Virus record (IMG/VR): IMGVR_UViG_3300032288_001236
Coordinates: 1 to 25,759 of that record
Length of the DNA stretch: 25,759 nucleotides
Strand: one strand, 5' to 3'
Origin: a virus
Numbering within the stretch: the first letter of the stretch is position 1; every line of letters starts with the position of its first letter. Both the position numbers and the translations under genes were made by a program. The notes beneath the pieces are model-generated. The model searched no databases. It was given only the letters and a program-made list of their open reading frames with translations, and had not been told where the DNA came from. This document shows positions 2,167-25,637 of this stretch, in pieces.

Positions 2167-2514
2167 ATGCCCGTCTTTCTTGACACCTTCGGCAACGCCA
2201 CCCTAGCGATCTTCATCTGCGACAGATGCAAGATGAAGCGTCCTATGGACGAGCAGATCTCGGACTTCAACTTTCCGGGTCTGAAGGTGTGCTCTCAGGG
2301 GTGCGCTGACGAGAAGGATCCGTATCGCCTTCCTGCACGCAAGACGGAGCGCATCAACCTGCGGTTCCCGCGTCCTGATGTGAGTGTGGCTCTAGACCCG
2401 AACAACCTCGTCACCGACAATGACGGGGACTACATCATCTCGACCGAGGGCAACACGGACACGCCCGAGAACAACGGCAACCTCGACGGAATTTCGGTGA
2501 CACCAGATGGCTAA
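2167..2514 (+). CDS. Small zinc-ribbon-like virion-associated protein
   Basis: This 115-aa protein starts at an ATG two bases after the adaptor stop. Cys18, Cys21, Cys42 and Cys46 form a C-x2-C ... C-x3-C arrangement suited to binding one zinc ion (ICDRC ... VCSQGC). It is followed by DPYRLPARKTERINLRFPRP, a block I associate with small structural proteins of short-tailed phages. The last 40 residues are acidic and Asn/Asp-rich and probably flexible. Its last 8 bases overlap the next gene (fibre 1). The location between adaptor and fibre suggests a neck or fibre-attachment role; this is inference and no enzymatic motif is visible. Confidence 0.6.
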   Translation: MPVFLDTFGNATLAIFICDRCKMKRPMDEQISDFNFPGLKVCSQGCADEKDPYRLPARKTERINLRFPRPDVSVALDPNNLVTDNDGDYIISTEGNTDTPENNGNLDGISVTPDG

Positions 2515-5500: not shown

Positions 5501-5761
5501 GGCCCAGGAACGGGCCTTACGGGCACTGCAAGCGGTCTCTCTATTGGAGGCAATGCCGCCACAGCGACGAGTGCAACGACCGCCACTACAGCAACAAATG
5601 CGACCAATGTAGCAATCACGGCCAACTCGACCAACGCCACCAATTACCTGACCTTCGTTAGCAATACCACAGGCAACCTCCCCGCACTGGTGAATTCTGG
5701 TATTGCGTGCAACCCTTCTACCGGCAAAATCACTGCCGGTATCTCAGGCGGAACTTTCTGA
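2507..5761 (+). CDS. Large modular tail fibre protein (fibre 1)
   Basis: A 1084-aa protein dominated by Gly, Thr, Ser, Asn and Ala in beta-strand patterns, with no catalytic motif seen. The N terminus (MANQTISQLPAAGPITGTEL VPIVQNG) is typical of phage fibres. Around residue 214 is GELRYNTDLAAFEGYAGGSW, a common fibre module. Residues about 475-625 form a domain with GDRILIYNQTNAFENGVYTV and WVLTRATDAD, also frequent in phage fibres. The flanking regions repeat NGGTGA-LTGYVKG, ISNGQL and GLGTMSTQNA units, and a 98-residue module occurs twice. It ends in GISGGTF, as does the 413-aa fibre-like protein downstream. The ATG overlaps the previous gene by 8 bases. Likely role: trimeric host-recognition fibre. 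Confidence 0.8.
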   Translation: MANQTISQLPAAGPITGTELVPIVQNGGTYQTTTAAIANSPTLTQTFLTQSQEITLNNSRYLTADTGLQLTDGGATSFLRIGMTGAANSLNSASTGFIVKDGAGTVVSRTLTTSGPGISISNADGTGANPIFSVNGVLSSLANFSGLGVLGLRPGGTIAGLTVTGTANQISITNGDGQLGDPTIALANNPVLPGTGSVKVPAGTTAQQPVGSDGELRYNTDLAAFEGYAGGSWLAFPIGTGVNTFSAGTTGFSPSSPTTGSIVLSGTLNVSNGGTGANSLTGYVKGSGTSAFTASATIPTTDLSGTISNGQLANSSLTVNGTTIALGASGTITATASNPLTIGTGLNGTSYNGSTPVTIEIANTGVVAASVGAANKTLTATVNAQGQLTALADTPIAIANTQVSGLGTMSTQNASAVAITGGAINGTTIGGSTPAAGTFTSLTTTTGTISTTPTNATDIANKQYVDNLVSTGLTYHTAVKYEVPSTTGNLNALYNQPGGPGVGVGATLTNNGTLAAFAPDGPTASPGDRILIYNQTNAFENGVYTVTTVGNGSTPWVLTRATDADSYGVKDPNALGQGDAFFVTSGNTGAGETYECNTVGTITFGTTAITFTQISSAQVYSAGTGLTLSGTQFSITNTGVSAASYGTASSVPTLAINAQGQVTSASNTAIAINANQITSGTITNSQLQNSAVTVNGTSISLGGSGTITAANPNALTIGTGLTGASYDGSAPITIALASSGVTPATYGSASQVPVFAVDTYGRVTSVTNTSIAIAAGAVSGLAASATTDTTNANNITSGTLNTARLSGSYTGITGVGTLTAGTWNANAIGVAYGGTGLTSTPTNGQLPIGNGTGYTLATLTAGTNVAITNSAGGITISATPAAGGTVTSVDVSGGTTGLTTSGGPITVSGTITLAGTLVVANGGTGATTLTGYVKGNGTSAFTASSSIPNTDITGLGTMSTQNANSVAITGGSIEGTTVGSTTATTVRGTTITATTQFSGPGTGLTGTASGLSIGGNAATATSATTATTATNATNVAITANSTNATNYLTFVSNTTGNLPALVNSGIACNPSTGKITAGISGGTF
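3425..4843 (+). repeat. Duplicated 98-residue module inside fibre 1
   Basis: Bases 3425-3718 and 4550-4843 encode two equal-length copies (98 codons, offset 1125 bases). Both begin I(S/T)N-QL-NS and run through TVNGT-I-LG-SGTITA, LTIGTGL-G-SY-GS-P-TI and VSG. By eye about half the residues are identical with no net gap. Between them lies the central NQT/ENGVY domain. The entry spans both copies. Confidence 0.7.
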
Positions 5762-5770: not shown

Positions 5771-8700
5771 ATGGCTCAAACCGGCTTTACCCCCATCCAG
5801 ATCTACTACTCCACCACGGCATCAAATGTGCCAACGGCGGGCAATTTGGTGGATGGTGAACTGGCCATCAACACCAATGACGGTCGCCTGTACTACAAAG
5901 ACAGCGGCGGAGTGGTGCAAACCATCGGCGCAAAACTTGGCACCAATGTGGCCACGGCACTGGGCACCGCTGTGGGGTCTGCGGGGGCGTTCGTCGTCAA
6001 CGGCGGCGCTCTGGGAACGCCTTCTTCCGGCACGGTGACCAACCTGACCGGCACGGCCAGTATCAACATCAACGGCACCGTAGGTGCTACGACTCCCAAC
6101 ACGGGGGCATTTACATCCGTTACCTCTACCAGTGCATCGGGCATTTTGACCCGTGCTGCCGCTACTCAAGACGGCGTGGAGTTGATTGGTCGGGCAGGCG
6201 GCACCTCTTCTTACAAGGTCACCTTCACCCCCACAACGCTGACGGCATCTCGGACAGTCACGCTGCCCAATGCTGACATCAACTTCACCACGGGTTTGGG
6301 CGTGGCTCAGGGTGGTACTGGAACCACCTCCCTCACAGCCAACAATGTGATCTTGGGCAACGGCACCTCTGCGGTGCAGTTTGTCGCCCCCGGCACTGCC
6401 GGTAATGTCCTGACCAGTAACGGTACGACATGGACTTCTGCTGCGGCAGGGGCTTCGCTGACGGGTGTTACTCAGTCAGTCTCGCCGTTTGAAACTGCGT
6501 TGGGTTTTGATGCCGGTCTGAATACGACTGGCGCAAATAATACTTGGATTGGTTACTACGCAGGTCGAGCAAACACAACTGGAGTTAGTAATTCTGCTCT
6601 TGGGTACTATGCCCTTAATGCAAACACAACAGGCGCTAGAAATATTGCTGTTGGTTTTGAAGCACTTGTTGGCAACACCACCGGCTCTGACAATGTGGCT
6701 ATTGGTTGGAGGTCGCTGCAATCTAACAATACTGGAACAAACAATGTTGCAGTTGGTCAGGGCTCTTTGTTTTCAACAACAAACTCTGAGAATGTTGGCA
6801 TCGGACAGGGCGCAGGACAGTTTAATACTACCGGATCGGTAACTGCTGTTGGCACTCGCGCGTTGTACTTTAATAGCACGGGCACAGCCAACACTGCCCT
6901 TGGCTATCAAACTTTGTACGCCAACACCACCGGCACAAACAACACCGCTGTTGGTTATCAGGCTCTGGATGCAAATACTATTGGCGGTTCAAACACCGCA
7001 ATAGGTGTAGACGCACTTGGAGCAAATACCACCGGCCTTTCAAATACGGCAGTGGGTAGAAGTGCGCTACTAAGCAATACCACCGGGTCAAATAATACTG
7101 CTGTTGGTAATGATGCTCTTAGGCTTAATACAACAGCCTACGATAACACTGCGTTTGGTGAGGGCGCGCTACGCAGCAACACTACCGGCGAAAGAAACAC
7201 CGCCCTTGGTAGGCTTGCGCTGTGGAACAACACAATCGCTAATAACAATGTAGCGGTTGGGTACAACACCCTGTACGCCAACACCACCGGCACAGAAAAC
7301 ACCGCCGTTGGCTATCAGGCTTTGGATGCCAACACTACTGGATCGTTTAACACTGCGTTAGGTTCGGGTTCGCTTGGCGCAAATACTACTGGCAGTCAAA
7401 ACACCGCAGTTGGTTATCAGGCGTTACCAGTAAGCACCACTGCACAATACAACACTGCGGTGGGTTTTAGGGCTGCGTATGCAAATACAACCGGGCAAAA
7501 TATTGTTGCTGTTGGTTGGTATGCACTTGCGTCCAACACCACTGGCGCTAATAATGTTGCGGTTGGTAATTCCGCGCTGTATACCAACGATATAGGCCAA
7601 GACAATGTGGCTGTCGGCCACAATAGTATGTATAGCAACACCACTGGCTCAAACAATGTAGCGGTGGGGCGCAACTCTCTAAACGCCAACACAACCGGAA
7701 CTGACAACACCGCCGTTGGATACTCCGCACTAAATCTTAATACCACCGGCCAATACAATGTGGCGATTGGGCGAGAGGCTTTGTCCCGCGCCACCACGGC
7801 CAGTGGTAACAACGCAGTTGGCCGTTTTGCTGCGTATCTCACTACCACCGGCGCAGAAAACAATGCGTTTGGTAACCGTGCGCTGTTTAGCAACACCACC
7901 GGCAACTACAACATCGCCCTTGGTGGAGATGCCCTGTATGCCAACACCACCGGCACAAACAACACTGCTGTTGGTTTTCAGGCTTTGGATGCCAATACCA
8001 TAGGCTATCAGAATGTAGCAGTTGGCACAGAGGCCCTCGGCGCAAATACCACCGGAAGAGACAATACAGCAGTTGGATACAATGCTTTAATTACCAACAC
8101 AGTTGGTTACGATATAACCGCAGTTGGTTCAAATGCTCTTTATGCAAACACTACTGGCGACAGTAATGTTGCGATGGGCAAGTACGCTGTTGGCGCAAAT
8201 ACAACTGGTTCTCGCAATTCTGGTTTGGGTTGGTATGCCCTTGGTGCAAATACTACTGGAACAGATAATACGGCAGTTGGTGACACCGCCGGTGACAAAA
8301 TCACCACTGGGCAGTACAACACCATTCTTGGGGCGTCCGCAGCCTCCTCTGGAACCAACGACCTAACCACCGGCTCCAACAACACCATCATCGGCTACAA
8401 CGCCGCTGCGTCCAGCGCCACGGTCAGTAACGAAATCACGCTTGGCAACTCCAGTATCACCACCATCCGAGCGCAAGTCACCACCATCACCAGTCTGTCG
8501 GATGCGCGAGACAAGACCAACATCAGCGATCTGCCTGCGGGGCTGACCTTCGTCAAAGCCTTGCGCCCAGTCGAGTTTGACTGGAACATGCGTGACGGCG
8601 GCAAGGTGGGTGAGCACGACACCGGCTTCATTGCACAAGACCTCAAGGCTGCGCAAGAATCCACTGGCGTCAACATCCCCGGTCTGGTGTATGAGAGCAA

Positions 8701-8812
8701 CCCCGACCGTCTGGAAGCAGGCTACGGTAAATTGATCCCGGTCTTGGTCAAGGCGATCCAAGAACTTAGTGCAGAGGTGCAGAGCCTCAAGTCTCAACTG
8801 AAAGGAAACTGA
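5771..8812 (+). CDS. YadA-head-like repeat fibre with C-terminal Peptidase_S74 chaperone (fibre 2)
   Basis: A 1013-aa fibre or tailspike. Residues 1-55 carry the virion-attachment motif TPIQIYYSTTASNVPTAGNL then GELAINTNDGRLYYKDSGG, typical of many phage fibres. Residues about 100-235 are beta modules including VAQGGTGTTSLTANN. Residues 251 to about 880 are about 37 repeats of 17 residues, consensus NTTG-xN-NTAVG-xx-AL-xA, resembling the left-handed beta-roll of YadA-type adhesin heads. Residues about 910-1013 are an intramolecular chaperone (Peptidase_S74): SDARDKTNI, ALRPVEFDW, TGFIAQDL, and a final coiled coil. In this family the Ser-Asp pair (here Ser910-Asp911) performs self-cleavage that releases the chaperone after trimer folding. 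This strongly supports a trimeric receptor-binding protein. Confidence 0.88.
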   Translation: MAQTGFTPIQIYYSTTASNVPTAGNLVDGELAINTNDGRLYYKDSGGVVQTIGAKLGTNVATALGTAVGSAGAFVVNGGALGTPSSGTVTNLTGTASININGTVGATTPNTGAFTSVTSTSASGILTRAAATQDGVELIGRAGGTSSYKVTFTPTTLTASRTVTLPNADINFTTGLGVAQGGTGTTSLTANNVILGNGTSAVQFVAPGTAGNVLTSNGTTWTSAAAGASLTGVTQSVSPFETALGFDAGLNTTGANNTWIGYYAGRANTTGVSNSALGYYALNANTTGARNIAVGFEALVGNTTGSDNVAIGWRSLQSNNTGTNNVAVGQGSLFSTTNSENVGIGQGAGQFNTTGSVTAVGTRALYFNSTGTANTALGYQTLYANTTGTNNTAVGYQALDANTIGGSNTAIGVDALGANTTGLSNTAVGRSALLSNTTGSNNTAVGNDALRLNTTAYDNTAFGEGALRSNTTGERNTALGRLALWNNTIANNNVAVGYNTLYANTTGTENTAVGYQALDANTTGSFNTALGSGSLGANTTGSQNTAVGYQALPVSTTAQYNTAVGFRAAYANTTGQNIVAVGWYALASNTTGANNVAVGNSALYTNDIGQDNVAVGHNSMYSNTTGSNNVAVGRNSLNANTTGTDNTAVGYSALNLNTTGQYNVAIGREALSRATTASGNNAVGRFAAYLTTTGAENNAFGNRALFSNTTGNYNIALGGDALYANTTGTNNTAVGFQALDANTIGYQNVAVGTEALGANTTGRDNTAVGYNALITNTVGYDITAVGSNALYANTTGDSNVAMGKYAVGANTTGSRNSGLGWYALGANTTGTDNTAVGDTAGDKITTGQYNTILGASAASSGTNDLTTGSNNTIIGYNAAASSATVSNEITLGNSSITTIRAQVTTITSLSDARDKTNISDLPAGLTFVKALRPVEFDWNMRDGGKVGEHDTGFIAQDLKAAQESTGVNIPGLVYESNPDRLEAGYGKLIPVLVKAIQELSAEVQSLKSQLKGN
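6521..8410 (+). repeat. About 37 in-frame 51-base (17-residue) repeats in fibre 2
   Basis: Each unit encodes NTTGxxNxAVGxxALxx. Near-identical longer blocks starting LYANTTGT recur at 6914, 7271 and 7934. Their offsets are 357 and 663 bases, exactly 7 and 13 units, so the register is maintained throughout. Two hand-counted 60-base samples (6541-6600 and 7081-7140) are 42-43% G+C, against 58% in a sample of the S74 region (8701-8760). Confidence 0.85.
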
Positions 8813-12634: not shown

Positions 12635-13876
12635 ATGCCCAGTTTCAATAGCCCGTTCACCGGCACGGTGGTGCAGCCCACGGATGTTTCTTTCCGGGCG
12701 ATTACTCTGACTGCTGACACGCAGTTGGAGTGGCCAATCAACGGCAATGCCACCGATGACGCTGCGGCGCGGATCATGAATGTGACGGCCTCCTCTGGAG
12801 GTCTTGCGCTGTGGATGCCGCCGGCCAACCAGACTTCTGTGGGCAACGATGCGTTGATCCGCAATGTCGGGGCCAACACCTTTACGGTCAAGGATTACGC
12901 CGGCACCAACACGATCATTACGATCGCTGCAGGTGAAGCCAAGTACATCTACATCACCTCTAACGCAACGGCTCAAGGCACTTGGGGCAACATCGCTTTC
13001 GGCACTGGCACATCCGCCGCAGATGCAGCCTCATTGGCCGGGTATGGGCTTGTGGCAAGCGGCTCTACGCTAAATCAAAGTCATCCCACTCAGTCTTTGA
13101 TCGCGGCATACACCTTTGCAGCCTCTGACCGCGCTCAGACCTACATCTGGTCTGGCGGCACGACAACAGCGACTCTTCCGCTGTCTTCGGTAACCGGCAA
13201 TAACTGGTTTGTGCTGTTCAAGAACAACGGCACGGGCACGGTCACGATTGGCACCTCTGGGGGCGAGTTGATTGACGGGCTGTCTTCAAAAGCGTTTGCG
13301 CCTGGGGAGTCGGCCTTCATCGTCTCTTCTGGTTCTTCGTATGTGACGATTGGCTACGGGACGAGTACAGAGTTCGAGTTTGGCGTGTTGACCAAGCCTG
13401 TAACGACTGGCTCCTACACGCTGACGGCCTCGGAGGCATCAAACACAATCCAGTTCTATACAGGAACCTTGTCGGGCAATGTGACGGTCACTTACCCGCC
13501 GGTTGTGAACCTGTATGTCATCTCCAACCAAACTAGCGCCGGCGGCTACACGCTGACGGTAACTACTGGGATTGGCGGATCTGCAACCGCGACGGTTCCC
13601 GCATCTGGTCAGGCAACACTGATCTGCGACGGGACGAACTTCTACAACGCCAACACAACTCAAGCGGGCTCAATCTCTTTCAGCCTTGTTAATGGCTCGG
13701 CAGCGTCTCCCTCGGTCTACTTTGGATCGGAGACGAACACTGGCATCTATCGCCCTGGCGCGGGGCGGTTTGGCATCTCCATACTTGGAAGTCTGATTGC
13801 AGACATCACCGCAAGCGGGCTTGCCATCACCGGCACCGGAACTTTCTCCGGCGGCATCTCTGGCGGGGCATTCTGA
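12635..13876 (+). CDS. Fibre-like virion structural protein, 413 aa
   Basis: An all-beta, Gly/Thr/Ser-rich protein. Residues 1-125 (VQPTDVSFRAITLTADTQLE, then LWMPPANQTSVGNDALIRNV) match an N-terminal module seen in many uncultured-phage tail proteins. The middle has repeated beta hairpins. Residues about 350-395 contain SVYFGSETNTGIYRPGAGRF, a motif that in other phage proteins usually precedes an S74 chaperone; here no chaperone follows and the protein ends GISGGAF. That end is nearly the same as that of fibre 1 (GISGGTF). The stop overlaps the nozzle ATG. Probable role: a short tail fibre or a support for the longer fibres. Confidence 0.7.
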   Translation: MPSFNSPFTGTVVQPTDVSFRAITLTADTQLEWPINGNATDDAAARIMNVTASSGGLALWMPPANQTSVGNDALIRNVGANTFTVKDYAGTNTIITIAAGEAKYIYITSNATAQGTWGNIAFGTGTSAADAASLAGYGLVASGSTLNQSHPTQSLIAAYTFAASDRAQTYIWSGGTTTATLPLSSVTGNNWFVLFKNNGTGTVTIGTSGGELIDGLSSKAFAPGESAFIVSSGSSYVTIGYGTSTEFEFGVLTKPVTTGSYTLTASEASNTIQFYTGTLSGNVTVTYPPVVNLYVISNQTSAGGYTLTVTTGIGGSATATVPASGQATLICDGTNFYNANTTQAGSISFSLVNGSAASPSVYFGSETNTGIYRPGAGRFGISILGSLIADITASGLAITGTGTFSGGISGGAF

Positions 13877-16146
13877 TGACCAAGAAGGTCTTCGCTCTTG
13901 ACACCAAGCCCGGAATTCAACGGGATGGAACTCTGTTTGACAAAGAGTTTTATGTTGACGGCCGATGGGTAAGATTTCAGCGGGGGCGCCCCCGTAAGAT
14001 CGGCGGGTATAAGCAGATTACAGACAGGATGTCTGGGCCATCTCGGGGCATCTATGTGGTGCCCCGAAACGCTTTCAACAACATCTACAACGGCTACTCT
14101 GACGGGCTGCAGGTCATCCCTGTCGACGACAACGGCACTGGTTCAGGCATCACGGACTTCACCTTTGGCGGCCCGATTCTGACCACGAATGTGCTTGTTG
14201 GAGGCACTGGCTACACCAATGGCACCTACGCCGGCGTGCCCCTGTCTTATGTGACATCTGGCACTGGAACTGGTGCTTCCGCCACGATTGTGGTGGCCGG
14301 TGGCGTGGTGACAACGGTAACTATTACCGGTGGTGGCTACGGCTATCTCGCATACGATCGACTGACTGCTGCTGCCTCGTTGATTGGCGGCACTGGCTCG
14401 GGGTTTTCTTTTCAGGTGGCAACGGTCAACAGTTGTTTCACCCCATCTGTGAACAACCTGTGGCAGTTTGATACCTTCACGGATTCATCCGGAGCAAATG
14501 TCAACCTGCTGTTGGCTCATCCGTCTCAGGATCTTGCGCAGATTGATGACGAGACCAACACCAAGGTTCTTTGCGGGAACCTACTTGGAACCTCTTTGCG
14601 TCCTGTGGGCGTCTTTACTGAAGTAGCCGCGACGATTACCAGTGGATCCAATAGCGTCACCCTGGCGTCGGCCAACACCAACATCGGCGTAAACCAACTC
14701 ATCACTGGGCCCGGAATTCCCGCGGGAACATTTGTTCAGGCCATCTCAACCACAACGCTGACTTTGAGCCAGAACGCTACCGCAAATGGCACAAATGTGA
14801 CCTTGGTGTTCGACAACCAAGTCTCCGTGTCTGGCGGGGTTGTTTCCCTGCACCCGTATGTGTTCGTGTACGGCAACGATGGACTGATCAAGAACTGCGC
14901 AGCCGGGAACATTGACGACTGGGTGTCTGCGGATGCCAACGAGGTCAATGTGGCTACCGGCAAGATTGTTCAGGCGCTTCCTGTTCGGGGTGGCTCTAAC
15001 GCGCCTTCCGGGCTGTTTTGGAGCCTAGATTCCTTGGTTCGGGTGTCTTATGCTCCGACCAATATCGTGGTGGGCGGGACTACGATCACTCAATACTGGC
15101 GCTACGATGTCATCACCTCGCAGTCTTCCATCTTGTCGTCTCAATGTGTGATTGAGTACGACGGCGTGTATTTCTGGTGCGGAACTGACCGGTTCCTGCT
15201 GTACAACGGTGTGGTCAAAGAGATCCCCAACAGCATGAATCAGAACTACTTCTTTGACAATCTGAACTACACGCAGCGCCAGAAGGTATTCGCCACCAAG
15301 GTTCCTCGGTTTGGTGAGATCTGGTGGTTCTACCCCCGCGGCAACTCAACCGAGTGCAATGACGCGATCATCTACAACATCCGAGAAAATGTTTGGTACG
15401 ACCTTGGGACAGCCTTGGGCGCTCGGCGATCTGCAGGCTACTTCTCTCAAGTGTTTAGATTCCCGGTGAATGCGGGATGGCAAACCAACTACGCGGGGGG
15501 CCTCAACACGCTGTCCATCTCCAATGCGGGTTCTGGCTACACAAACGGAACCTACTCTTTCCAGGCGCTTACTGGAGGAACTGGAACCGGAGCAACCGCC
15601 ACGATCGTCATCTCCGGGGGAGTGGCCACTTCTGTCGTCTTGAAAGATAAGGGTCAAGGCTATACGGTGGGCGACACGCTGTCTGCATCCATCCCTGGCG
15701 GGACAAACTTGGAGTTGACGGTCGGCACTACGACAGACTTCGTAACTCTTTGGCAGCACGAGGTCGGAACGGACGAAGTGGCTTTCTCTCAAGTGAACGC
15801 CATTGAGTCATTCTTTGAGACCTCTGACCTCGGTTGGGTTGCGGGCGGCCCCTCCGAGCCATCTCCTGTGGGTGAAAATCGGTGGCTAAGAATCGAGCGT
15901 GTAGAGCCTGACTTTATTCAGTCTGGCAGCATGGACTTGTACATCACGGGTCGTCCCTACGCTCAAGAGCAAGATAAGACTACCGGGCCCTATACCTTTG
16001 CTCCCGGCACTGGCAAGATTGACATGAAAGAACAGCGCCGCGAGTTGCGCATGAAGTTTGTGTCAAACGAGGCCGGTGGAAATTATCAGTTGGGCAAGGT
16101 AATTGTCAATGCCGATGTGGGCGATGTCCGCGGATACTCAACATGA
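13876..16146 (+). CDS. Tail nozzle / tubular protein B-like protein with inserted beta modules
   Basis: 756 aa, in the size range of podovirus nozzle proteins that form the short tail tube and gate the DNA. The N terminus (GIQRDGTLFDKEFYVDGRWV, then KIGGYK) is diagnostic of the class. The core at about residues 315-540 has repeated blades (YVFVYGNDGLIKN, YDGVYFWCGTDRFLLYNGVV, VPRFGEIWWFYPRG, NVWYDLG), consistent with a beta-propeller. The C terminus (MDLYITGRPYAQEQ, then RRELRMKFVSN) is also typical. Three insertions stand out: residues about 105-185 and 544-620, which are related to each other (GYTNGTY ... GTGTGA-ATIV), and about 248-315 (GPGIPAG type). The stop overlaps the next ATG (ATGA). 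Confidence 0.8.
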   Translation: MTKKVFALDTKPGIQRDGTLFDKEFYVDGRWVRFQRGRPRKIGGYKQITDRMSGPSRGIYVVPRNAFNNIYNGYSDGLQVIPVDDNGTGSGITDFTFGGPILTTNVLVGGTGYTNGTYAGVPLSYVTSGTGTGASATIVVAGGVVTTVTITGGGYGYLAYDRLTAAASLIGGTGSGFSFQVATVNSCFTPSVNNLWQFDTFTDSSGANVNLLLAHPSQDLAQIDDETNTKVLCGNLLGTSLRPVGVFTEVAATITSGSNSVTLASANTNIGVNQLITGPGIPAGTFVQAISTTTLTLSQNATANGTNVTLVFDNQVSVSGGVVSLHPYVFVYGNDGLIKNCAAGNIDDWVSADANEVNVATGKIVQALPVRGGSNAPSGLFWSLDSLVRVSYAPTNIVVGGTTITQYWRYDVITSQSSILSSQCVIEYDGVYFWCGTDRFLLYNGVVKEIPNSMNQNYFFDNLNYTQRQKVFATKVPRFGEIWWFYPRGNSTECNDAIIYNIRENVWYDLGTALGARRSAGYFSQVFRFPVNAGWQTNYAGGLNTLSISNAGSGYTNGTYSFQALTGGTGTGATATIVISGGVATSVVLKDKGQGYTVGDTLSASIPGGTNLELTVGTTTDFVTLWQHEVGTDEVAFSQVNAIESFFETSDLGWVAGGPSEPSPVGENRWLRIERVEPDFIQSGSMDLYITGRPYAQEQDKTTGPYTFAPGTGKIDMKEQRRELRMKFVSNEAGGNYQLGKVIVNADVGDVRGYST

Positions 16147-16388
16147 GCGTCGGGCTGATTTATGACCCCCGGTATCACTCTTTTGAGTCATGGGCATCTT
16201 TGATGTGTGAACTTTACGCTGCGCAGCAACTGCAGATCCCAGGGCCTACGGTGGACTGGAAGTCATGGGCGGCCGGATTGAAAGCGATCGACATCTTTGC
16301 CAACGAAGGCGTCCCCGAACCTTACAACTTTGACGACTGGCAAGAATGGGCACAGGCTGTAGTCGGTGCCGTCAACCCGAGAACCTGA
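16143..16388 (+). CDS. Small conserved protein after the nozzle
   Basis: 81 aa, translationally coupled to the nozzle (ATGA). It is Trp-rich and helical, with a repeated W-x2-W/WA pattern: HSFESWASLMCELYAAQQ, VDWKSWAAGLKAID and FDDWQEWAQAVVG. It contains no catalytic motif or membrane segment. The repeated pattern suggests three similar helical hairpins packing together. I recognise similar proteins between nozzle and internal-protein genes in other phages but no function is known. A minor virion component or assembly factor is the likeliest role. Confidence 0.6.
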   Translation: MSVGLIYDPRYHSFESWASLMCELYAAQQLQIPGPTVDWKSWAAGLKAIDIFANEGVPEPYNFDDWQEWAQAVVGAVNPRT

Positions 16389-16389
16389 C

Positions 16390-19300
16390 ATGAACGGTTT
16401 CATGCAAGAAAAGGAAGTGCCCTTGTTTGATGACGGAGGGTATCTGGATCTTCTGGGCGGAACTCAGACCCAGACTACGCCTGCGCAGACTCAACAGCCG
16501 GTTCAAACAACGGCACCTCTTTCGCAGGCCCCTCTTTCTCAAGTCCCCGCTCCTGCCGGAGTGCTGACTCAGCCGTCCGTTGGGCAACGGTATTTTGATC
16601 TGTACCCAGACATTGCTCAGGCCTACGCTCAAGACTCGTATGGTTTGACTCCTGACCAGTTTGCGCAGACGCACTACGATCGTTTCGGCAAGGCAGAGGG
16701 GCGATTGTTTGACATCCCGCCTCCGACAACGCCTGCGGCCGCTCAATCACAAGTGGCCAATCTTGGTGCTGAGGCCGGCGCTCTGGACATGGCTCAGGTG
16801 TCGGCGACTGCCGCAGATGATCCTGCTGTGGCGGCTCAGAACCCCCTGCTGACCGAATACTCGACAGCACCAAAAACCATCACGCCGTTCAAGCCCACTG
16901 CGGTGGTGTTTGGCGACTCCATGAGTGGCGCGGTTGGCTACAACCCTGCCGACAACAAGCCTGACATCAAGTACGGCGTGACCGTGGCTGATGTCCTGGC
17001 CAACAACCTTGGCGTGGATGTTTACAACCTTGCGTCTGGTGGCGAGACCTCCAACGAGGCTCTCAGCCCTATTGGCAAGCACGGCGGGTTTGAGAACTAC
17101 ATCACCCAGTATCAGCCTCAGTACGCCATCCTGCGGTACGGGGCGGCGGATGCGATCCGCAATAAGGACGGCATCCAGAGCACCATCGATTCCATGACTC
17201 AGATGGTGGATACCGCTTTGAAAAACGGTACCGTTCCTGTGATCGTTGGGGTTTCTGAACTCTACAGCAATCCTAACGACAAGACGGGGTTCATCATTGA
17301 CTACATTGATCCCGGCGCTGAAGCGCGGGCCAACCAGATTAATGATTTTTTGAGAAACCTTGCGATTCAGAAAGGTGTACCGTTCATTGATGTTCGTGGA
17401 CTGGTTCAGGCCGGTCAAGGCGACCTCTTCGACGGCGTCCATGCGAATGTGGAGTTCGGCAAGAAGATGGCGGATGCCATCTCGGGCGCTATCTCAACGC
17501 TTGGCATCATTCCTGGCGCAAAGCAGTTTGGCATGGCGCAACAGCCATCGGGGGCTTTGGGTCAAGTTGCGACATCTGGACAACAGGCCGCGACCGGTCA
17601 GGATGTTTTTGGTCAAGAGGGCATTGGATTCCAACCGGGTGCCGGCGGATTGCCTTCGGACATCCCTCCTGCAGCACTTCCTCCCGCAGAGCCGCCCAAG
17701 GCCACTGAATCTGCCACTGCACCAATTACCCCAAACATCGGCGGCGACTTATCTGGCATTGATTTTTCCAAACTTAATTTAGACCAGGAAGGCTTAAAAA
17801 CTTACATTGCGCAGCAAGATGCGCCAGACTATCCGGTTGCGTCAGCATCAGAAGCCATGGATCTGATGCTAAGGACTCCGGGCAATGCGATTCGTCAATA
17901 CGGGCAGTACACGGTTATTCCTGTCAGTAGTCTTGCTCGCCTGCACGAGGGTTTAGATGTACCGGTAGGAATGTTTGAATACACCCCTGACTCTTACGAA
18001 GTCAGTGGTATGAAAGGTGTAACCGACAAGGGCGTCAACTACGAAGCAACCGACTTCTTTGACGCAAAAGGAGGCTTTACCGGACGACAGGTTAATTACA
18101 GGACTGGCGGCGACAGTGGTGTTTATGTTACTTACGATGCCAAAGGGAACATCACCAGTCAGTATGCCTACGATGAATCAGAGTCGTGGCGATCTCCTGC
18201 CGCGCTAGGTTTGTCCTTTCTCGGGGCCACCGTGGGCCTACCCGGTATCGGTGCCGCTCTTTCTGGAGGCGCTTTGTCAGGAGCATCGGCGGCAGCCCTT
18301 GGTGGCGCTGCGCTAGGAGGCGCGGGCGCTGCTGTTTCAGGAGCGGAAGGGTCTGACATCCTCAAAGGCGCTGCACTTGGAGGTCTTGGAGCGGGCGCAG
18401 GACAACTTGCTCAAGGCTTGGGTACGGCAGTAGGAAATGCAGTAGGCCCCGGCATCGCCGGCGATATTGCATCTGGTGCAGTTAAGGGTGCTGTTGGCGC
18501 TTTGCCGGCCGCAATTTCGACTGGCGATCTGAGCATCATTGGGATTGGCGCACTTACGGGTGGCGTTGCAGGCGGCGCGGGATCAGCCTTGCAAGATTTG
18601 GGGCTGTCGCCAACACAAATTCAGGGCGCGGCCACGATTGTCAATCAGTTGGCTTCTGGCAACCCCAATGTCAACAGCATGATCAACGCCGCAGGGCAGT
18701 TGGTGGACTCCCCGAATGCGTCCATCGCCGCCAAAGCCGGCGTGATGTTCAATCTCGCCCGCACTGGGGCGTCTCCAAGCGCTCTTATCAGCGCCGCGGT
18801 GGATCTTGCCAAAACAATCAGTACCGCTGAACAGTACAAAGTTGACAAAGCGCTGTTTGAGGCCGGCAAGGAAGCGGGTAAGGCTTTCCCGCCTGCAGCG
18901 CCTGCGACTGAGAAAGATGTCTTTGAGTCGATCGCACGCGATCAGACGCTGAAGATTGGAGCGGGTGAAGCGGATGATCTGCAGCAGGCTTCTGCGCTTG
19001 CTCAAGCCCGCGGTTTTAACAGGTTTGAGTTCCCTGTTGGGTCAGGCACGACCTACACGGTTGGCGACATCGCCTTCACGGATCCTGAGTCTGGAGAAGT
19101 AATCCGCACCAACCGCGAAGGCATTGAACTGGCGGATGCAAATCGTCGCTTCATGGAGCAAGAGCGTCAGGCAAAGTTGCCCGACTACTCGTCATCCGAC
19201 ACGCTTTCTTCTGCGGCCATGAAGGCCTACACGGAAGGCAACACCGGCACCTTCATGTACAAGGGGGCGGAGTACCGTACCCCGGATGCGATCGACATCG

Positions 19301-22300
19301 CTACCGGTCAGGCGACTGCTCTGCCGATTACCCAGATGGGCATCCCGTCCGTCACGGTTGGCGGAAGGACTACGCCTCCTGCGGAGGGCGGAACCTTCAC
19401 GGCTCCTGACATTCCGATCCCGTCTGTCACGATCGACTACGGCGGGGTTCCGCTCGACTACACCGCGCTGTCTCCAGAGTCTGGGGCTGCTGCTACCGAG
19501 ACGATTACGGCTGAGGATGTGCCTGATCAAGGCCCCATCAAGGCTGATCAGACGGTTCAAGTTACCGGCAAGCGACTCAACGAGTTTGAGCGTTGGTCTG
19601 ACTACATCGACAAATACTTCCCTGGCGGCACGGCCCAGAAGGACTCGCTTGGCAACATCCTGACGCCTCCCACCTTTGAAGAGTGGCAGGCTATGGGTGG
19701 GCGTACTCAGCCCGCAGAAGTCGCTCAGATCGGCAGCGATGTGCTTAAGAGCGCCGTTGCAGGCGCTGCTGATGTGGCCAAGGCTCCGTTCGTCCTGGCC
19801 AATCTGATTGCAGGCAAGTCAAGCAGCGGCATCTCTGAGAGTCTGGCGTCTTACATCAACTCTGTTGAGCAGAGTATGTCGCCGGAGTTCAAGGCCAATC
19901 AAGCCTTGATGAACAAGGTTCTTGGCACTGACCCCAATGCGTGGGAGACCCTCAAAGCCTACGCGGTAAACCCACAGCAGGTTCTGAACTTCCTGGCCCG
20001 CACTTCTCCGACCATGCTTGCAGGTGGCGCGGCAGGCCTTGGCGCTCGCCTTATGGGCGCGGGGATGTCCGGCATTGAAACTGCCGCAATCATGGCCAAC
20101 GCGGGCGTTCACGCGGCTCAGAGCGCAGACAGCGCCATGGAGCAAGCCCGTCAGTTGGGTTACTCCGACGCGCAGGCTTTGGGAATCGGCCGGACGGTTG
20201 CGGCGCTGTCGTCCATGATCTCTGCCGGCGCTCAGAAGATCGTCCCTGGCGCGATGTCTATCGAAGCCAAGATTGCGGGCGCAAATGTTCCTTCGCTGAT
20301 CGGCCGCGAGACTGGTGAAGCAATGCTTTCCACCGGTCAGAGCGCACTCAGGAACGCCTTGGTTCGATATGGCGGCGAGATCGGCAGCGAGAACATTGAG
20401 GAAGGCTCCTCTCGGGTAATGACCAACCTTGCTGTTGGCCGTCCGTGGGATGAAGGCCTGAGCAGAACTTTTGTAGAAGCAACGCTCGCAAGCGGCGGCC
20501 TGACTGCGGCGGTGGATGCCATCTCCAAAGTCCCGACCTTTGAGAGTCTGCTCACGCAAGCCCAGGCTGATCCGGAAGGCAAGGAGTTTGCCGACCTTAT
20601 CTTCTTGGGCCGCAGCACGCCGACCCTGATGACCTTTGAGTCTGGGCCGCCTGCAATCGGCATGGATGTGGCTGCAGTTGATCCAGATCTCGCCACTGCG
20701 CCTGATCTTTTGACCGGTCAGCGGCCATTGCTGACGGATAAGACCGGAACTCAAGTGGCCACAGGCACGGCTCTTGATGAGCAGATCGCTCGTGAGCAGC
20801 GCGTTTCTGACATCGTTGGCGACCGCACCTCAACCACTCAAGCGCCGACCACTCTGCCTCCTGGCGCTACGCCTGACATGGTGACCTTCTTCGACGAGAA
20901 GGGGACGCCGGTTACCTATCGAGACATCGGACTTACTCAGCCTGCTACTCAGCCGCCGACAACCGATCAGGCCACGACGCCTGCCGCCGATCGGGGCGTG
21001 ATTGATGTTGAGACTAGGCCTGCCGGCACTCCTGCCGTCAGCCCTGCTGAGGAGGTTTCCGGGCAGCAGGTGTCTGTTGCAGAGAGGTCTGTCGAACTGG
21101 ACAACCTGCAGAAGTTGTTCGACCAAGCCTTGTTTGAGACTTCCGCTCCTGGAGTGTCCATCTCCAACGGCGCGATAACGGATGTCACGACCAACCCGAC
21201 GACCAACACAAACATCACTCAGGTGGTGAACCCAGTCACGGGGCAAACGCAAGTCACGATCACGGATGCCGCCGGCAATCCTGCTGCTCCGACTACGGTT
21301 GTGGGCACTGACGCGACAGGAAACCCCGTAACCGCGGGGGCGGCGCAGAGCATCGTGTCTGGCCAGACGACTGGGTCTGTGGTGGTGGGCAACACCACGA
21401 TCGCGTCTACCGTTGACCCCAACACCAACACTTCAACGGTGGTGAAGACTGACGCGGATACGGGCGTCAGGACTGAGACGGTTGTGGACTCCAACACCGG
21501 GACGACCACTAAGACGGTGACCGACCCGACCACCAACACCACGACCCAAGTGGTGACGGATGTTGCTTCTGGAACTACCACGGTTGTTCAAAGCACGACT
21601 GATGCGGCCACGAAGGTTGAGACCAATACCGCCACGAATGTCTCGACGGTCACGACCACTGACATCAACACCGGGACGACGACTCAAGTCGTTACCGACC
21701 CGGCAACCAACCAGACGGTCAGAACCGAGACGACTGGCAACACGACTACGCAAGTCACGACCGATCCCGCCACCAATCTTGAGGTCACGACCAAGACCAA
21801 CACCAACACCGGTGTGACGACTCAGACCACGGTTGATCCTGGCACGAACACCACGACTCAGGTCACCACAAACCCCAACACCAACACGACGATTGTGACG
21901 GTGACGGATCCTGCTTCTGGGCTTGAGGCTACGACCAAGATCGACCTGAACACCGGCACTCAAACAACCTTGATTGTCGACATTAGTACCGGAACTGTGG
22001 TCAACGAGTTAGTGACCTCGGTGACGGATCCCGTTTCGGTTCCGCCTGTTGATCCGGTTCCGCCTGTGACCACTCCGGTTGGGCCGTCAGTTGATGCCGG
22101 AACGCCTGGAGTGCCCGCAGGGGTTGAGACGCCGGAGCCCAAGGTCGTAACTCCGGAAGGGGTGACCACAACGGCAGTTCCCACTCCGGTGAGTTCGATT
22201 GATCAGCAGGTAACTTCGACGCCGACAACAACGCCGACAGAGACCAAGCCCGGAACCACCACCAAGCCTCCGACAGTTTCTCCGAGTCTTAACTTGGCGG

Positions 22301-22989
22301 CACTGGCTCCACTTGCTGCTGCAGGTGCTGCAGTTCCGCGAGAAAGTATTGGCCCGCAGTTCCTGAAATCTTGGGAAACTCAGAAATATATTGACCCGCT
22401 TGCCGAAGTCAAACAGGCGCAGGCAGAACTATCAGGTGACAGTCTTATGCAGCAAATCGACCCCCGACTGGCTTCCATTCTTCAGCAGCGTATGGGTGAA
22501 CAGAAGGCCGAAGATCCGATCGGAGCCCTTGCTCGGATGCTGTCTGGTGAAGCGGAAGAGCCCTCAAACTCTCCGTACTATTCCTACGGCGAGGAAGAGT
22601 CAATTGACGACATCCTTGGCGGCAAGGCCGCCGGTTTCGCTCAGGGAGGCTATGTTGCTCCCCTGCAGATGGCCGGAGGTGGTGAGATGCCGATGGCTCT
22701 GATGGCCAAGGAAGGCGGGCGTGCCCGAGAAGACTTCCGTCACGGAAAGCATGTTGCCGGAGATGGCGATGGCCAGTCGGACGACATCCCGGCATGGCTT
22801 GCTGATGGCGAGTTTGTCTTCCCGGCGGATGTGGTTTCTGCCCTCGGGAACGGCTCTACAAAGGCCGGAACGGACAAGTTGTACGAGATGATGCACGGCA
22901 TCCGTGAGCGTGCTCGTTCTAAGGGCCCGAAAGATCTTCCACCACCCGCTTTGAAATCTCCTCTTGACTACTTAAAATCCAAACGGTAA
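16390..22989 (+). CDS. Giant virion/ejection protein with SGNH hydrolase domain
   Basis: 2199 aa from the ATG at 16390, one base after the previous stop; GTG 16366 and ATG 16402 are alternatives, and no strong ribosome-binding site decides. Residues 67-107 are a YPDIAQAY ... HYDRFGKAEGR module. Residues 168-375 are an SGNH/GDSL hydrolase: FGDSMSG (Ser177), ASGGET (Gly217), YGAAD at 250-254 and FDGVHAN (Asp348, His351). The usual block III Asn is Ala253. Residues about 601-739 are Gly/Ala-rich and hydrophobic, suiting membrane insertion. Residues about 1110-1380 resemble domains of large phage polyvalent or internal proteins. Residues 1676-1877 are 12-residue Thr-rich repeats. A Pro/Thr linker and a C-terminal domain (DDIPAWLADGEFVFPADVVS) common in phage virion proteins follow. 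Best reading: an ejected or internal virion protein with esterase activity. Confidence 0.75.
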   Translation: MNGFMQEKEVPLFDDGGYLDLLGGTQTQTTPAQTQQPVQTTAPLSQAPLSQVPAPAGVLTQPSVGQRYFDLYPDIAQAYAQDSYGLTPDQFAQTHYDRFGKAEGRLFDIPPPTTPAAAQSQVANLGAEAGALDMAQVSATAADDPAVAAQNPLLTEYSTAPKTITPFKPTAVVFGDSMSGAVGYNPADNKPDIKYGVTVADVLANNLGVDVYNLASGGETSNEALSPIGKHGGFENYITQYQPQYAILRYGAADAIRNKDGIQSTIDSMTQMVDTALKNGTVPVIVGVSELYSNPNDKTGFIIDYIDPGAEARANQINDFLRNLAIQKGVPFIDVRGLVQAGQGDLFDGVHANVEFGKKMADAISGAISTLGIIPGAKQFGMAQQPSGALGQVATSGQQAATGQDVFGQEGIGFQPGAGGLPSDIPPAALPPAEPPKATESATAPITPNIGGDLSGIDFSKLNLDQEGLKTYIAQQDAPDYPVASASEAMDLMLRTPGNAIRQYGQYTVIPVSSLARLHEGLDVPVGMFEYTPDSYEVSGMKGVTDKGVNYEATDFFDAKGGFTGRQVNYRTGGDSGVYVTYDAKGNITSQYAYDESESWRSPAALGLSFLGATVGLPGIGAALSGGALSGASAAALGGAALGGAGAAVSGAEGSDILKGAALGGLGAGAGQLAQGLGTAVGNAVGPGIAGDIASGAVKGAVGALPAAISTGDLSIIGIGALTGGVAGGAGSALQDLGLSPTQIQGAATIVNQLASGNPNVNSMINAAGQLVDSPNASIAAKAGVMFNLARTGASPSALISAAVDLAKTISTAEQYKVDKALFEAGKEAGKAFPPAAPATEKDVFESIARDQTLKIGAGEADDLQQASALAQARGFNRFEFPVGSGTTYTVGDIAFTDPESGEVIRTNREGIELADANRRFMEQERQAKLPDYSSSDTLSSAAMKAYTEGNTGTFMYKGAEYRTPDAIDIATGQATALPITQMGIPSVTVGGRTTPPAEGGTFTAPDIPIPSVTIDYGGVPLDYTALSPESGAAATETITAEDVPDQGPIKADQTVQVTGKRLNEFERWSDYIDKYFPGGTAQKDSLGNILTPPTFEEWQAMGGRTQPAEVAQIGSDVLKSAVAGAADVAKAPFVLANLIAGKSSSGISESLASYINSVEQSMSPEFKANQALMNKVLGTDPNAWETLKAYAVNPQQVLNFLARTSPTMLAGGAAGLGARLMGAGMSGIETAAIMANAGVHAAQSADSAMEQARQLGYSDAQALGIGRTVAALSSMISAGAQKIVPGAMSIEAKIAGANVPSLIGRETGEAMLSTGQSALRNALVRYGGEIGSENIEEGSSRVMTNLAVGRPWDEGLSRTFVEATLASGGLTAAVDAISKVPTFESLLTQAQADPEGKEFADLIFLGRSTPTLMTFESGPPAIGMDVAAVDPDLATAPDLLTGQRPLLTDKTGTQVATGTALDEQIAREQRVSDIVGDRTSTTQAPTTLPPGATPDMVTFFDEKGTPVTYRDIGLTQPATQPPTTDQATTPAADRGVIDVETRPAGTPAVSPAEEVSGQQVSVAERSVELDNLQKLFDQALFETSAPGVSISNGAITDVTTNPTTNTNITQVVNPVTGQTQVTITDAAGNPAAPTTVVGTDATGNPVTAGAAQSIVSGQTTGSVVVGNTTIASTVDPNTNTSTVVKTDADTGVRTETVVDSNTGTTTKTVTDPTTNTTTQVVTDVASGTTTVVQSTTDAATKVETNTATNVSTVTTTDINTGTTTQVVTDPATNQTVRTETTGNTTTQVTTDPATNLEVTTKTNTNTGVTTQTTVDPGTNTTTQVTTNPNTNTTIVTVTDPASGLEATTKIDLNTGTQTTLIVDISTGTVVNELVTSVTDPVSVPPVDPVPPVTTPVGPSVDAGTPGVPAGVETPEPKVVTPEGVTTTAVPTPVSSIDQQVTSTPTTTPTETKPGTTTKPPTVSPSLNLAALAPLAAAGAAVPRESIGPQFLKSWETQKYIDPLAEVKQAQAELSGDSLMQQIDPRLASILQQRMGEQKAEDPIGALARMLSGEAEEPSNSPYYSYGEEESIDDILGGKAAGFAQGGYVAPLQMAGGGEMPMALMAKEGGRAREDFRHGKHVAGDGDGQSDDIPAWLADGEFVFPADVVSALGNGSTKAGTDKLYEMMHGIRERARSKGPKDLPPPALKSPLDYLKSKR
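21415..22020 (+). repeat. About 17 Thr-rich 12-residue repeats in the giant protein
   Basis: In-frame repeats with consensus D-P-x-T-N/G-x-T-T-x-x-V-T, for example DPTTNTTTQVVT, DINTGTTTQVVT and DPGTNTTTQVTT. Most units are exactly 12 residues (36 bases), with one longer and one shorter unit. Such regular Thr/Asn repeats suit a beta-solenoid or extended spacer. Confidence 0.75.
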
Positions 22990-23001: not shown

Positions 23002-23967
23002 ATGTCACTATTTGAAGGCACCGCGCCGCCGAACATCAAGTCCACAGAGACAGTCGCGGCGACAGCGCCGCAGTACCTGACGGACTACCTGACGAAACTT
23101 TCCCAGTCTGGGATGACCAGTCTGGATGTTCCTGCGGGGCAACTGGTTGCTCCTGAGTCTCCTCTGACGCAACAGGCTCGGGGTGAGGCTGCAACCACTC
23201 TTGGTCGGTATCAGCAGCCTTTGGGGACGGCATTTACGGCGGGTCAGGCCGCTGCGGCTCCGATCACTCAGGCTGACATCTCTGCCTTCTACAACCCCTA
23301 TGAGCAGCAAGTGGTCTCTGACATGGCTCGTCAGAGTTCAGAGAATGTTCAACGAGGCCTGTTGCCTCAACTTCGCGGGGCATTTGCAGGCACTGGCGCT
23401 TTTGGAAGCCAACGATATGCAGGAGCAGCGGGGCAGGCGTTGGCGGATGTTCAGCAAGATCTTCTGGCGCAGCAAGGAAAACTCAGGGCTGCGGGGTTCC
23501 AATCCGCCCTTGATGCTGCTCTGCGTCAAAAGTCTGGTCAGGCACAGGCCGCTTCTGCGCTAGGAGGCTTGGGCACTGCTGAAGCGTCGGGAGCCAAGAC
23601 CTACCTGGACATCCTGTCCGGGCTCGGCAAAGGCGAGCAGGAATACGATCAGGCTCAGATTGAAGCCCCGTTGGTTCGAGCCCAGAATGTGGCGCAGATT
23701 CTTCGCGGTTATACCTACCCGACGACCACCAAGAAAGAGTACGAAGGCCCAGGAAACATCTATGGGCCCTCTCCGCTGTCGCAGATTGCCGGCCTGGGGT
23801 CTCTGATTGGTTCAGCATTTGGTAGCCCGGTAGATCCCAGGACTGGCCGCCCGACTGGCCAGGGTTGGGGTGATCGTCTGTTTGACTTCATTGGTGGGAA
23901 GTTGGGGTCTCTTGGTGGGACTGCATTCCCCGCCATGCCTACCTACGGAACCAGTGAGGGCGAGTAA
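23002..23967 (+). CDS. Internal/ejection-type virion protein, 321 aa
   Basis: A helical Ala/Gln/Gly-rich protein. Residues about 93-145 (FYNPYEQQVVSDMARQSSEN, then LRGAFAGTGAFGSQRYAGA) form a block I recognise in many phage proteins located with ejected or internal head proteins. A long amphipathic helix follows (about 145-200, ALADVQQDLLAQQGKLRAAG). The C terminus is Gly-rich with a hydrophobic stretch (LSQIAGLGSLIGSAFGS, about 258-275). There is no signal peptide or catalytic motif. Position between the giant SGNH protein and another helical protein supports a role in the ejected assembly. The specific function is inferred, not shown. Confidence 0.6.
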   Translation: MSLFEGTAPPNIKSTETVAATAPQYLTDYLTKLSQSGMTSLDVPAGQLVAPESPLTQQARGEAATTLGRYQQPLGTAFTAGQAAAAPITQADISAFYNPYEQQVVSDMARQSSENVQRGLLPQLRGAFAGTGAFGSQRYAGAAGQALADVQQDLLAQQGKLRAAGFQSALDAALRQKSGQAQAASALGGLGTAEASGAKTYLDILSGLGKGEQEYDQAQIEAPLVRAQNVAQILRGYTYPTTTKKEYEGPGNIYGPSPLSQIAGLGSLIGSAFGSPVDPRTGRPTGQGWGDRLFDFIGGKLGSLGGTAFPAMPTYGTSEGE

Positions 23968-23969
23968 TC

Positions 23970-25637
23970 ATGGCAACAGCCCCCAAGACTGGCGCACTTT
24001 CTTATTACGCGGGGTCTCCTGAAGAAGAGGCTTCTGCCGAAAAACTACGGCAGGCTCAGGCTGCATTGACGGAGGCTCTCACAAGCCGTCAGCAACTGTT
24101 TGACCCGGTTCTCCTGGCCATGGCTCAGGGGTTCTTGGCTCCGACCAGAAGCGGTTCTTTTGGGGAATCCATAGGCAACGCTGCGGGCGCAGTCGCTCCC
24201 GTACAGGCAGCCGAAGACAAGCGTGCGCGTGAGATCGCCCAGTTGCGCTACGAGTTGGCTGCTCAAGAGCATGGCATGACGCAGCAGACTCGCCGTCAAC
24301 GCAGCGCCGAACAGCAGATGCGCCGTTTGACGGGAGAAGAGCCCGCAGCCGCCCCCGCTCAAGGCATTACTCCTGTGGAGCGCGGTATTGCTACCGGGGC
24401 ACCTTCTGCGCCTGGCGCAGCACCGGCGGGACAGCCTGCGGCGGGAGGGGCTGCACCTGCTGCACCTACTGCACCTGCCGCACCCTCTTCTGCCGCTACT
24501 GGCGGGCTTCGTCCGATCATGGAGTCGGACATCCTGGCCATGTCTCAGGTTGACCCTGAACTTGCCGGCACGCTCGAAAAGTTGATGAAGTCTCAGCGTG
24601 ATCGAATCGTGATCACGCAGGGCGGGCTTCCATACGACCGAGTTCGTCAGCAATATGTTGGCGGCCCGATCCCGAGCCAAGACCAGAAGGCTTACCGGAC
24701 TGCGTTTGGCCAGTTCTATATGCTGCCTTGGCAGCACGATATGTTTATTGAGGCCTCTCAGAGAGGTCAGGGCAAGGAGTGGATGGAAAGATTCCAGTCC
24801 ACTGGCATCGCCTCTTCTCTTAGCGAACTTCCTGCTGCAGGCGCTCGCGCTCCTGGTGCGCCTGGTGCAGCACCGGGAACAACGCCCCGCATGAAGACCG
24901 TTGAAGAAGAAAAGGCAGAAGAATCTGCTCAAAAGATTCTGGCCGAAGAGCGTGCGAAAGGTATGGCCAAGCGCACGGAAGAAGCGCTTAACGCAGGCGA
25001 AGGTTATGCGAGTCGCATGGCCACCTACAACAGCCTTGGCAAGATCGCAAGTCGTCCAGATGCCACCAAGATTTTTGGTCTGCTAGAGCGTCCTGGCGTT
25101 CCTGAGGCCATCCTTGGTTTGGTGCGTGACACTATTAAGGCCCCCGGCACTGGTAGTTCAATCTCCGTCCCAGGCTTGGAAAGCGCATTGCGGAATGTTG
25201 GTCTAGATCAAAATCTAATCAACCAGTACCAGTTTGCGCTTTCTCAAATGGCCAATCTGCAGTTGCAGCAGTCTCGCATTACCGAGGGCCAAGGCGCAGT
25301 TTCTGACCGAGAGCGTGAGTTGTTTGCTACAGCCGCGATCACGAGTCGTGACAACCCGGCGACGATCAATGCCAAATTGGATATGTACCGCGCTCGTGCG
25401 GAACTTGACCGAGACATCGCAAGCGAACTCCGCAAGAGCGGCATGACGATTGATCAGTTCAAGACGGAGCGCAAGGACTGGTACGACAGCAGAGTTGATC
25501 GCTACCTAAGCCGGGTTGAGACGATTGTTGATAAGTTGGGTGGTGCTCCCGGCGCTCCTGTTAAGCGTAGTGCTGCAGCAGTTGCGCCGTCAAGCAATGC
25601 GGGTCAAACTCTGCGGCAAGAACTCGGCATCAAGTAA
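23970..25637 (+). CDS. Internal/ejection-type virion protein, 555 aa
   Basis: A mainly helical protein whose ATG lies two bases after the previous stop. Residues 1-120 (FGESIGNAAGAVAPVQAAED, then long Gln/Arg-rich helices) form a coiled-coil-like N domain. Residues about 124-180 are an Ala/Pro/Gly linker and about 289-307 a second one. Residues 310-525 are a helical C domain with GAVSDRERELFATAAITSRD and YSLE-like long helices around MYRARAELDRDIASELRKSG. This domain resembles structural proteins placed next to ejected proteins in other aquatic phages. No enzyme motif is visible. Low-complexity linkers between helical domains suit a protein that unfolds to pass the tail. The assignment is by pattern and context. 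Confidence 0.55.
   Translation: MATAPKTGALSYYAGSPEEEASAEKLRQAQAALTEALTSRQQLFDPVLLAMAQGFLAPTRSGSFGESIGNAAGAVAPVQAAEDKRAREIAQLRYELAAQEHGMTQQTRRQRSAEQQMRRLTGEEPAAAPAQGITPVERGIATGAPSAPGAAPAGQPAAGGAAPAAPTAPAAPSSAATGGLRPIMESDILAMSQVDPELAGTLEKLMKSQRDRIVITQGGLPYDRVRQQYVGGPIPSQDQKAYRTAFGQFYMLPWQHDMFIEASQRGQGKEWMERFQSTGIASSLSELPAAGARAPGAPGAAPGTTPRMKTVEEEKAEESAQKILAEERAKGMAKRTEEALNAGEGYASRMATYNSLGKIASRPDATKIFGLLERPGVPEAILGLVRDTIKAPGTGSSISVPGLESALRNVGLDQNLINQYQFALSQMANLQLQQSRITEGQGAVSDRERELFATAAITSRDNPATINAKLDMYRARAELDRDIASELRKSGMTIDQFKTERKDWYDSRVDRYLSRVETIVDKLGGAPGAPVKRSAAAVAPSSNAGQTLRQELGIK

Follow-up and report, generated by a model that had tools for sequence, protein, structure and literature searches.

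An enzyme fold near the start of a giant phage protein raises the question of where that enzyme would act: on the cell surface before entry, in the envelope while DNA is being delivered, or in the host afterwards. We addressed this question in a 25,759-base IMG/VR fragment from an uncultured bacterial virus (the window, meaning the whole stretch that was analyzed). The original prediction had placed in it, at 16390-22989, a single 2199-residue protein joining an SGNH hydrolase to membrane-like, repeat and virion parts. The open reading frame, here called P0001, does run for 2199 residues plus a stop from ATG 16390. Since the stop of an upstream 81-aa gene lies one base away and the relatives L003, L011 and L012 begin at the same position, this start is plausible. 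From the N terminus, P0001 consists of a slot occupied by the SGNH domain, a Gly/Ala hydrophobic block, a variable middle, a Thr-rich spacer and a conserved C terminus, with the following features:

16390..22989, plus strand: P0001, modular open reading frame of 2199 aa (ORF calling, Pfam, alignments)
16558..16575, plus strand: GVLTQP, aa 57-62, linker motif of the GAL.Q[AV] type before the SGNH domain (motif scan)
16567..16734, plus strand: helical-looking module YFxxxPDxAxAY...EGR, aa 60-115 (alignment)
16882..17523, plus strand: SGNH-fold domain, aa 165-378 (Pfam, AF2, Foldseek/VIA, alignment)
16912..16920, plus strand: block I GDS, aa 175-177, with Ser177 as predicted nucleophile (invariant in alignment)
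17038..17040, plus strand: block II Gly217 (alignment)
17140..17151, plus strand: block III GAAD, aa 251-254, the canonical Asn replaced by Ala253 (alignment, HMMER)
17431..17442, plus strand: block V DGVH, with Asp348 and His351 (alignment)
17551..17568, plus strand: GALGQV, aa 388-393, linker motif on the C-terminal side of the SGNH domain (motif scan)
18190..18789, plus strand: Gly/Ala-rich hydrophobic block, aa 601-800 (composition, Kyte-Doolittle)
21160..22179, plus strand: Thr-rich low-complexity spacer, aa 1591-1930 (composition)
22342..22986, plus strand: conserved C-terminal region, aa 1985-2199, core SDDIPAWLADGEFVFPADVVSALGNGSTKAGTDKLYEMMH (alignment)

The proposed fusion is supported: besides the SGNH domain, P0001 has a block of membrane-like character, repeats of low complexity and a C terminus of virion type. 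Glycine and alanine make up 35-55% of residues across aa 601-800, as expected of the Gly/Ala-rich hydrophobic block, whose membrane propensity is borderline (one Kyte-Doolittle 19-residue window at or above 1.6, with 1.62 at aa 606-624). The predicted Thr-rich repeats correspond to a threonine content of 26-42% over aa 1601-1900, and no tandem DNA repeats over the TRF threshold were found in this part. The module at aa 60-115 is also present in L035, L042, L044, L047 and L063. The stretch of the putative polyvalent-like helices (aa ~1090-1440) matched only L002, which is near-identical, and the protein of L003/L015. Pfam and NCBIfam recognized no enzyme domain in P0001 other than SGNH, and the protein has no PHROG at E<=1 and no NCBIfam match.

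The assignment of the SGNH fold stands on Pfam and on an AF2 model, because matches of the SGNH profile to PDB sequences are weak (best E 4e-4, to a designed protein). PF13472 (E 4.1e-15, 57.2 bits against a cut-off of 32.9, aa 173-354) and PF00657 (E 7.7e-12, 46.2 bits against a cut-off of 23.6) together span aa 172-364. The model of aa 165-378, built from 17 sequences, reaches a pLDDT of 84.1 and a pTM of 0.85 and matches SGNH esterases along its full length at Z ~20, so that the structural check proposed for this region came out in favor of the fold. SGNH/GDSL proteins dominate among the Foldseek/VIA matches listed, which include the carbohydrate acetylesterase Est24 (5hoe; Foldseek E ~2e-9; VIA Z 20.8, rmsd 2.7, 189 aligned). 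The GDS at 175-177, Gly217 and the Asp348/His351 pair are all where they had been predicted, and the Ser, both block II Gly, the Asp and the His are invariant across nine aligned domains.

Block III holds a substitution that the original prediction had overlooked. In the HMMER profile alignment, Ala253 falls exactly on the Asn of TesA (GGND) and of GTND proteins, a residue that is, to our knowledge, nearly universal in the SGNH family. GAADAI is invariant in nine phage-borne domains (the window, L086, L003, L011, L091, L092, L093, L096 and L097), and four SGNH pairs with unsaturated dS give dN/dS values of 0.053-0.074; between the window and L086, pN is 0.089 with pS saturated at 0.79. Because of this invariance and of dN/dS values of 0.05-0.07, the GAAD domain is, on the evidence of its sequence, a maintained variant rather than a product of decay, and its motifs place the P0001 domain as a non-canonical SGNH fold and not as a canonical SGNH hydrolase. 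A more distant SGNH set, with 18-21% identity to the window domain, has GGND (L044, L052) or GGLD/GGVD (L040-L042, L046) in block III, and L040, L041, L042 and L046 have GAS instead of GDS in block I. The window domain had no match among 50,697 phage records. No cellular origin of the GAADAI clade came to light: a scan of 84,980 prokaryotic genomes, which reaches only sequences with a shared conserved peptide, gave no confirmed copy.

The opposite end of the protein points to the kind of particle component that P0001 could be. Its last ~215 residues recur at ~80 viral loci with 45-71% identity, in support of the virion C-terminal domain claimed for it, and the proteins that share them are 900-3000 aa long and mostly hypervariable elsewhere. 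The C-terminal core, SDDIPAWLADGEFVFPADVV..., also recurs in prokaryotic genomes inside tape-measure proteins identified by PHROGs, and all six tested prokaryotic carriers of the core motif SDDIPAxL(S/A)xGEFV are tape-measure proteins. A search of P0001 for the body profile of a tape-measure PHROG found none. The AF2 model of the C-terminal region is of low confidence (pLDDT 57, pTM 0.20).

The gene neighborhood bears on the same question, with these markers on either side of P0001:

11989..12624, plus strand: tail tubular protein A (TTPA)-like gene, upstream syntenic marker (family match, synteny)
13876..16146, plus strand: phage stabilization / nozzle-type virion protein (family match, synteny)
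16143..16388, plus strand: conserved 81-aa gene directly upstream of P0001 (synteny)
23002..23967, plus strand: 321-aa downstream gene, with homologues in the ejection clusters of MW202545 and GB2A (synteny)
23970..25637, plus strand: 555-aa downstream gene, kept in the cluster (synteny)

The short-tail genes of the window are TTPA and an SU10-type adaptor. The order TTPA, 413-aa gene, nozzle, 81-aa gene, P0001 type, 321-aa gene and 555-aa gene was found in 17/17 tabulated metagenomic representatives, whole or cut only at contig ends. Caulobacter phage GB2A has the same order, with a 580-aa counterpart annotated as 'tail length tape measure' and, next in line, a 'lytic tail protein'. In MW202545, the counterpart has 639 aa, small extra genes are added to the same order, and the last gene of the cluster encodes an SLT transglycosylase. 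Fibre (2507-5761) and spike (5771-8812) genes are separate in the window, the latter being of tailspike type and including an intramolecular chaperone of the Peptidase_S74 family (E 4e-12). Tape-measure and ejection proteins exit the virion during DNA entry. Given the synteny, the tape-measure C-terminal motif and the separate fibre and spike genes, we infer that P0001 is best regarded as an ejected protein rather than a tailspike, which agrees with its predicted place among internal or ejected proteins.

The cluster varies in some of its details. The nozzle-type gene of L003 (4730-9310) encodes 1526 aa, about twice the length seen in the window and most relatives; L052 has ~516 nt extra (~4947-5449) between the nozzle and 81-aa genes relative to the near-identical L055; and L098 and MW202545 have additional genes near this position too. 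A weak hint of a Burkholderiales host for the family comes from L098, whose contig carries the whole cluster and has been assigned to a Limnohabitans MAG. Of the records of 47 relatives, many of them fragments, 24 contain SLT, and the window stops short of the SLT position. SLT and SGNH occur together in L040, L041, L042 and L046, and SLT was not found in the L003/L015 or L011/L014 records, which carry the window-type SGNH. A partnership of the two as a general rule was rejected on this ground; their pairing through O-acetyl removal is an attractive idea that would not hold generally.

Across the family, proteins typically have a variable N-terminal part, the Gly/Ala hydrophobic block, a variable middle, a low-complexity spacer and the fixed C terminus. 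The spacer differs in composition from phage to phage, with Thr repeats in the window, Glu/Thr in L025, SGFSG in L057 and Pro/Thr in L060. Among 59 aligned proteins, SGNH domains occur in nine distinct phages and are always N-terminal. When SGNH presence is mapped on the tree of the neighboring 413-aa tail gene, it changes eight times, at least six of these changes being forced by well-supported branches, and its scatter equals that of shuffled labels (mean 8.6). The most direct evidence comes from blastn comparison of L052 and L055, which share 97% identity across 4.9 kb of upstream DNA and 99.6% over 283 nt, after which L052 alone has an in-frame SGNH segment of 711 nt; past this segment, identity is back at 96.6%. 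The edges of the segment share CTGGTG, and its right edge coincides with the motif GALQQV. At the sequence level, then, SGNH behaves like a cassette that close relatives gain and lose, its edges lying in frame at GAL.Q linkers. Additionally, L003 and L011 have a helical-looking module of ~60 aa ahead of the SGNH domain, and L092-L097 show it more weakly. In L006, L013 and a second copy in L003, the same module precedes another domain, of ~205 aa, so the N-terminal slot accepts more than one cassette. The ~205-aa domain (L003 aa 465-668, L006 aa 219-422, L013 aa 236-440) stands in tandem with SGNH in L003. It gave no convincing Pfam or PDB sequence match in the three proteins, and the L013 copy had none in NCBIfam.

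The motif at the right edge of the L052/L055 cassette belongs to a recurrent type. GAL.Q[AV] was counted 49 times in 106,840 aa of the family and 18 times in the remaining proteins of the same loci (264,488 aa), a ~7-fold enrichment that ignores kinship, and a broader form of the motif gives 70 matches against 5.9 in shuffles, again with kinship ignored. In many family members, GAL.Q[AV] sits at or near module edges. Since the motif is written in 46 distinct DNA spellings, conservation appears to act on the peptide rather than the DNA, and possible roles include a linker, a processing site or a docking peptide. We tentatively propose, with more doubt than conviction, that short-tailed phages have, at the N terminus of a tape-measure-like ejection protein, a dedicated slot bounded by GAL.Q linkers. 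Envelope-acting domains (two SGNH lineages, the ~205-aa domain and DUF4214) would be swapped into it in frame, and one SGNH lineage, not found in the cellular genomes searched, would work with an oxyanion hole lacking Asn.

Domains of the same clade are also found in other phage proteins. In L094 and L097, SGNH stands at the start of a ~1000-aa protein whose gene comes directly behind an SU10-type portal gene and ahead of scaffold and capsid genes (families of these neighbors were tested in L097). MW202710 encodes this protein at the equivalent position in a form that lacks SGNH (508 aa). In L091 (3-3998), an ORF of 1331 aa combines a GAADAI SGNH domain with ART-PolyVal and is immediately upstream of a portal-like gene. 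A literature search, largely without subscription papers, returned SGNH domains in tail fibres and spikes and none in ejection proteins.

Taken together, these data lead us to favor, with modest confidence, a reading of P0001 as a giant ejection-type protein of a short-tailed phage, internal to the virion and tape-measure-like, with an exchangeable SGNH domain that would deacylate the envelope. P0001 would exit the virion together with the DNA or before it, and its hydrophobic block and C terminus may help to form a conduit through the envelope. The SGNH domain could then strip acyl groups, most likely O-acetyl, from a polymer of the envelope, for example peptidoglycan or a surface polysaccharide, and thereby ease passage, and the variable N-terminal slot may adapt the phage to the local envelope. 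The predicted esterase is probably active, and catalysis without the oxyanion-hole Asn would proceed through Ser177-His351-Asp348 together with backbone amides.

One rival reading is that the GAAD clade has lost its esterase chemistry and that its SGNH fold, now non-catalytic, persists as a structural module or as one that binds glycans or lipids, which would be compatible with ejection. The replacement of Asn by Ala253 in all nine domains fits such a module, as do the GGLD/GGVD and GAS motifs of L040, L041, L042 and L046, and replacing the Asn in the PatB and OatA transferases destroyed activity (PMC6174289). The backbone amides of Ser and Gly also contribute to oxyanion stabilization, however (PMC6174289), and a non-catalytic role sits uneasily with the invariance of the Ser, both block II Gly, the Asp and the His. 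Strong purifying selection is consistent with an active or an inactive domain. Overall, we consider a non-catalytic module somewhat unlikely.

Two further explanations accept an enzyme and move its site of action. P0001 could be a surface-exposed appendage of the tail tip or head whose N-terminal domains, SGNH included, hit acetyl groups of capsule or LPS before entry. Tail fibres are a familiar home of SGNH domains (PMC4925675, PMC10684548, PMC3853054), and N-terminal hypervariability together with DUF4214, collagen-like and Thr-rich parts is also typical of exposed adhesins. We nonetheless regard an appendage as improbable: the fibre and S74 spike genes of the window are separate, P0001 is syntenic with ejection-type genes and shares its C-terminal motif with tape-measure proteins, and Pfam and PHROG searches found no fibre domains in it. 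More improbable still is an ejected cytoplasmic effector, in which SGNH, as part of an injected cargo of the polyvalent type, would target acyl or ester metabolites within the host. Polyvalent proteins have been described as injected cargo (PMC5512222), and the L091 fusion to ART-PolyVal beside a portal gene would suit such an effector. Against it, P0001 has no second recognizable enzyme domain, in many relatives its neighbors include a wall-acting enzyme (SLT), and the text of the polyvalent survey contains no word starting with 'SGNH', 'lipase' or 'esterase' (PMC5512222).

What is new here, the phage-borne SGNH clade lacking the Asn and the direct evidence that cassettes are exchanged in a protein of ejection type, is best seen against known systems. 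P0001 resembles Est24 (5hoe), TesA and Ape1-type peptidoglycan O-acetylesterases in fold, Ser-Asp-His residues and block II Gly, and differs from them in the block III change from Asn to Ala, in being part of a virion-type protein and in an identity of ~16-20%; the conserved GAAD variant offers a natural test of the need for this Asn in SGNH chemistry. Like the SGNH esterases of tail fibres, its domain is phage-borne and plausibly acts on acetylated glycans, but, unlike those of fibres and tailspikes, it is encoded in an ejection-type cluster with fibres as separate genes. Polyvalent proteins combine several unrelated enzyme domains in one polypeptide that is injected, whereas P0001 has one recognizable enzyme domain; the sister SGNH of the same clade in L091, fused to ART-PolyVal near a portal gene, does show that combination.

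With siphophage tape-measure proteins (phrog_6090 and others), P0001 shares the SDDIPAxL(S/A)xGEFV C-terminal motif, great length, and hydrophobic and low-complexity parts; it differs from them in lacking a tape-measure body, in having an N-terminal SGNH cassette and in belonging to a phage with short-tail genes. T7 gp16 has an N-terminal transglycosylase, and ejection proteins swap N-terminal wall-degrading domains (PMC8954989). P0001 is likewise a large ejection-type protein with an N-terminal candidate envelope enzyme, is encoded after tail-nozzle genes, and belongs to a family whose N-terminal enzyme domains are exchanged between phages, as in proteins of the gp16 type (PMC8954989). The predicted enzyme of P0001, in contrast, has an SGNH fold and is not a wall glycosidase, no sequence match to the gp14-gp16 families was obtained, and in its relatives SLT is a separate downstream gene. 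If our reading is correct, the enzymes that short-tailed phages deliver through the envelope, known as wall-cleaving ones, are joined by an acyl-ester hydrolase, and close relatives exchange the delivered domain as a cassette. L052 and L055, a near-identical pair of which one has the SGNH cassette and the other does not, make the benefit of such an ejected accessory domain testable.
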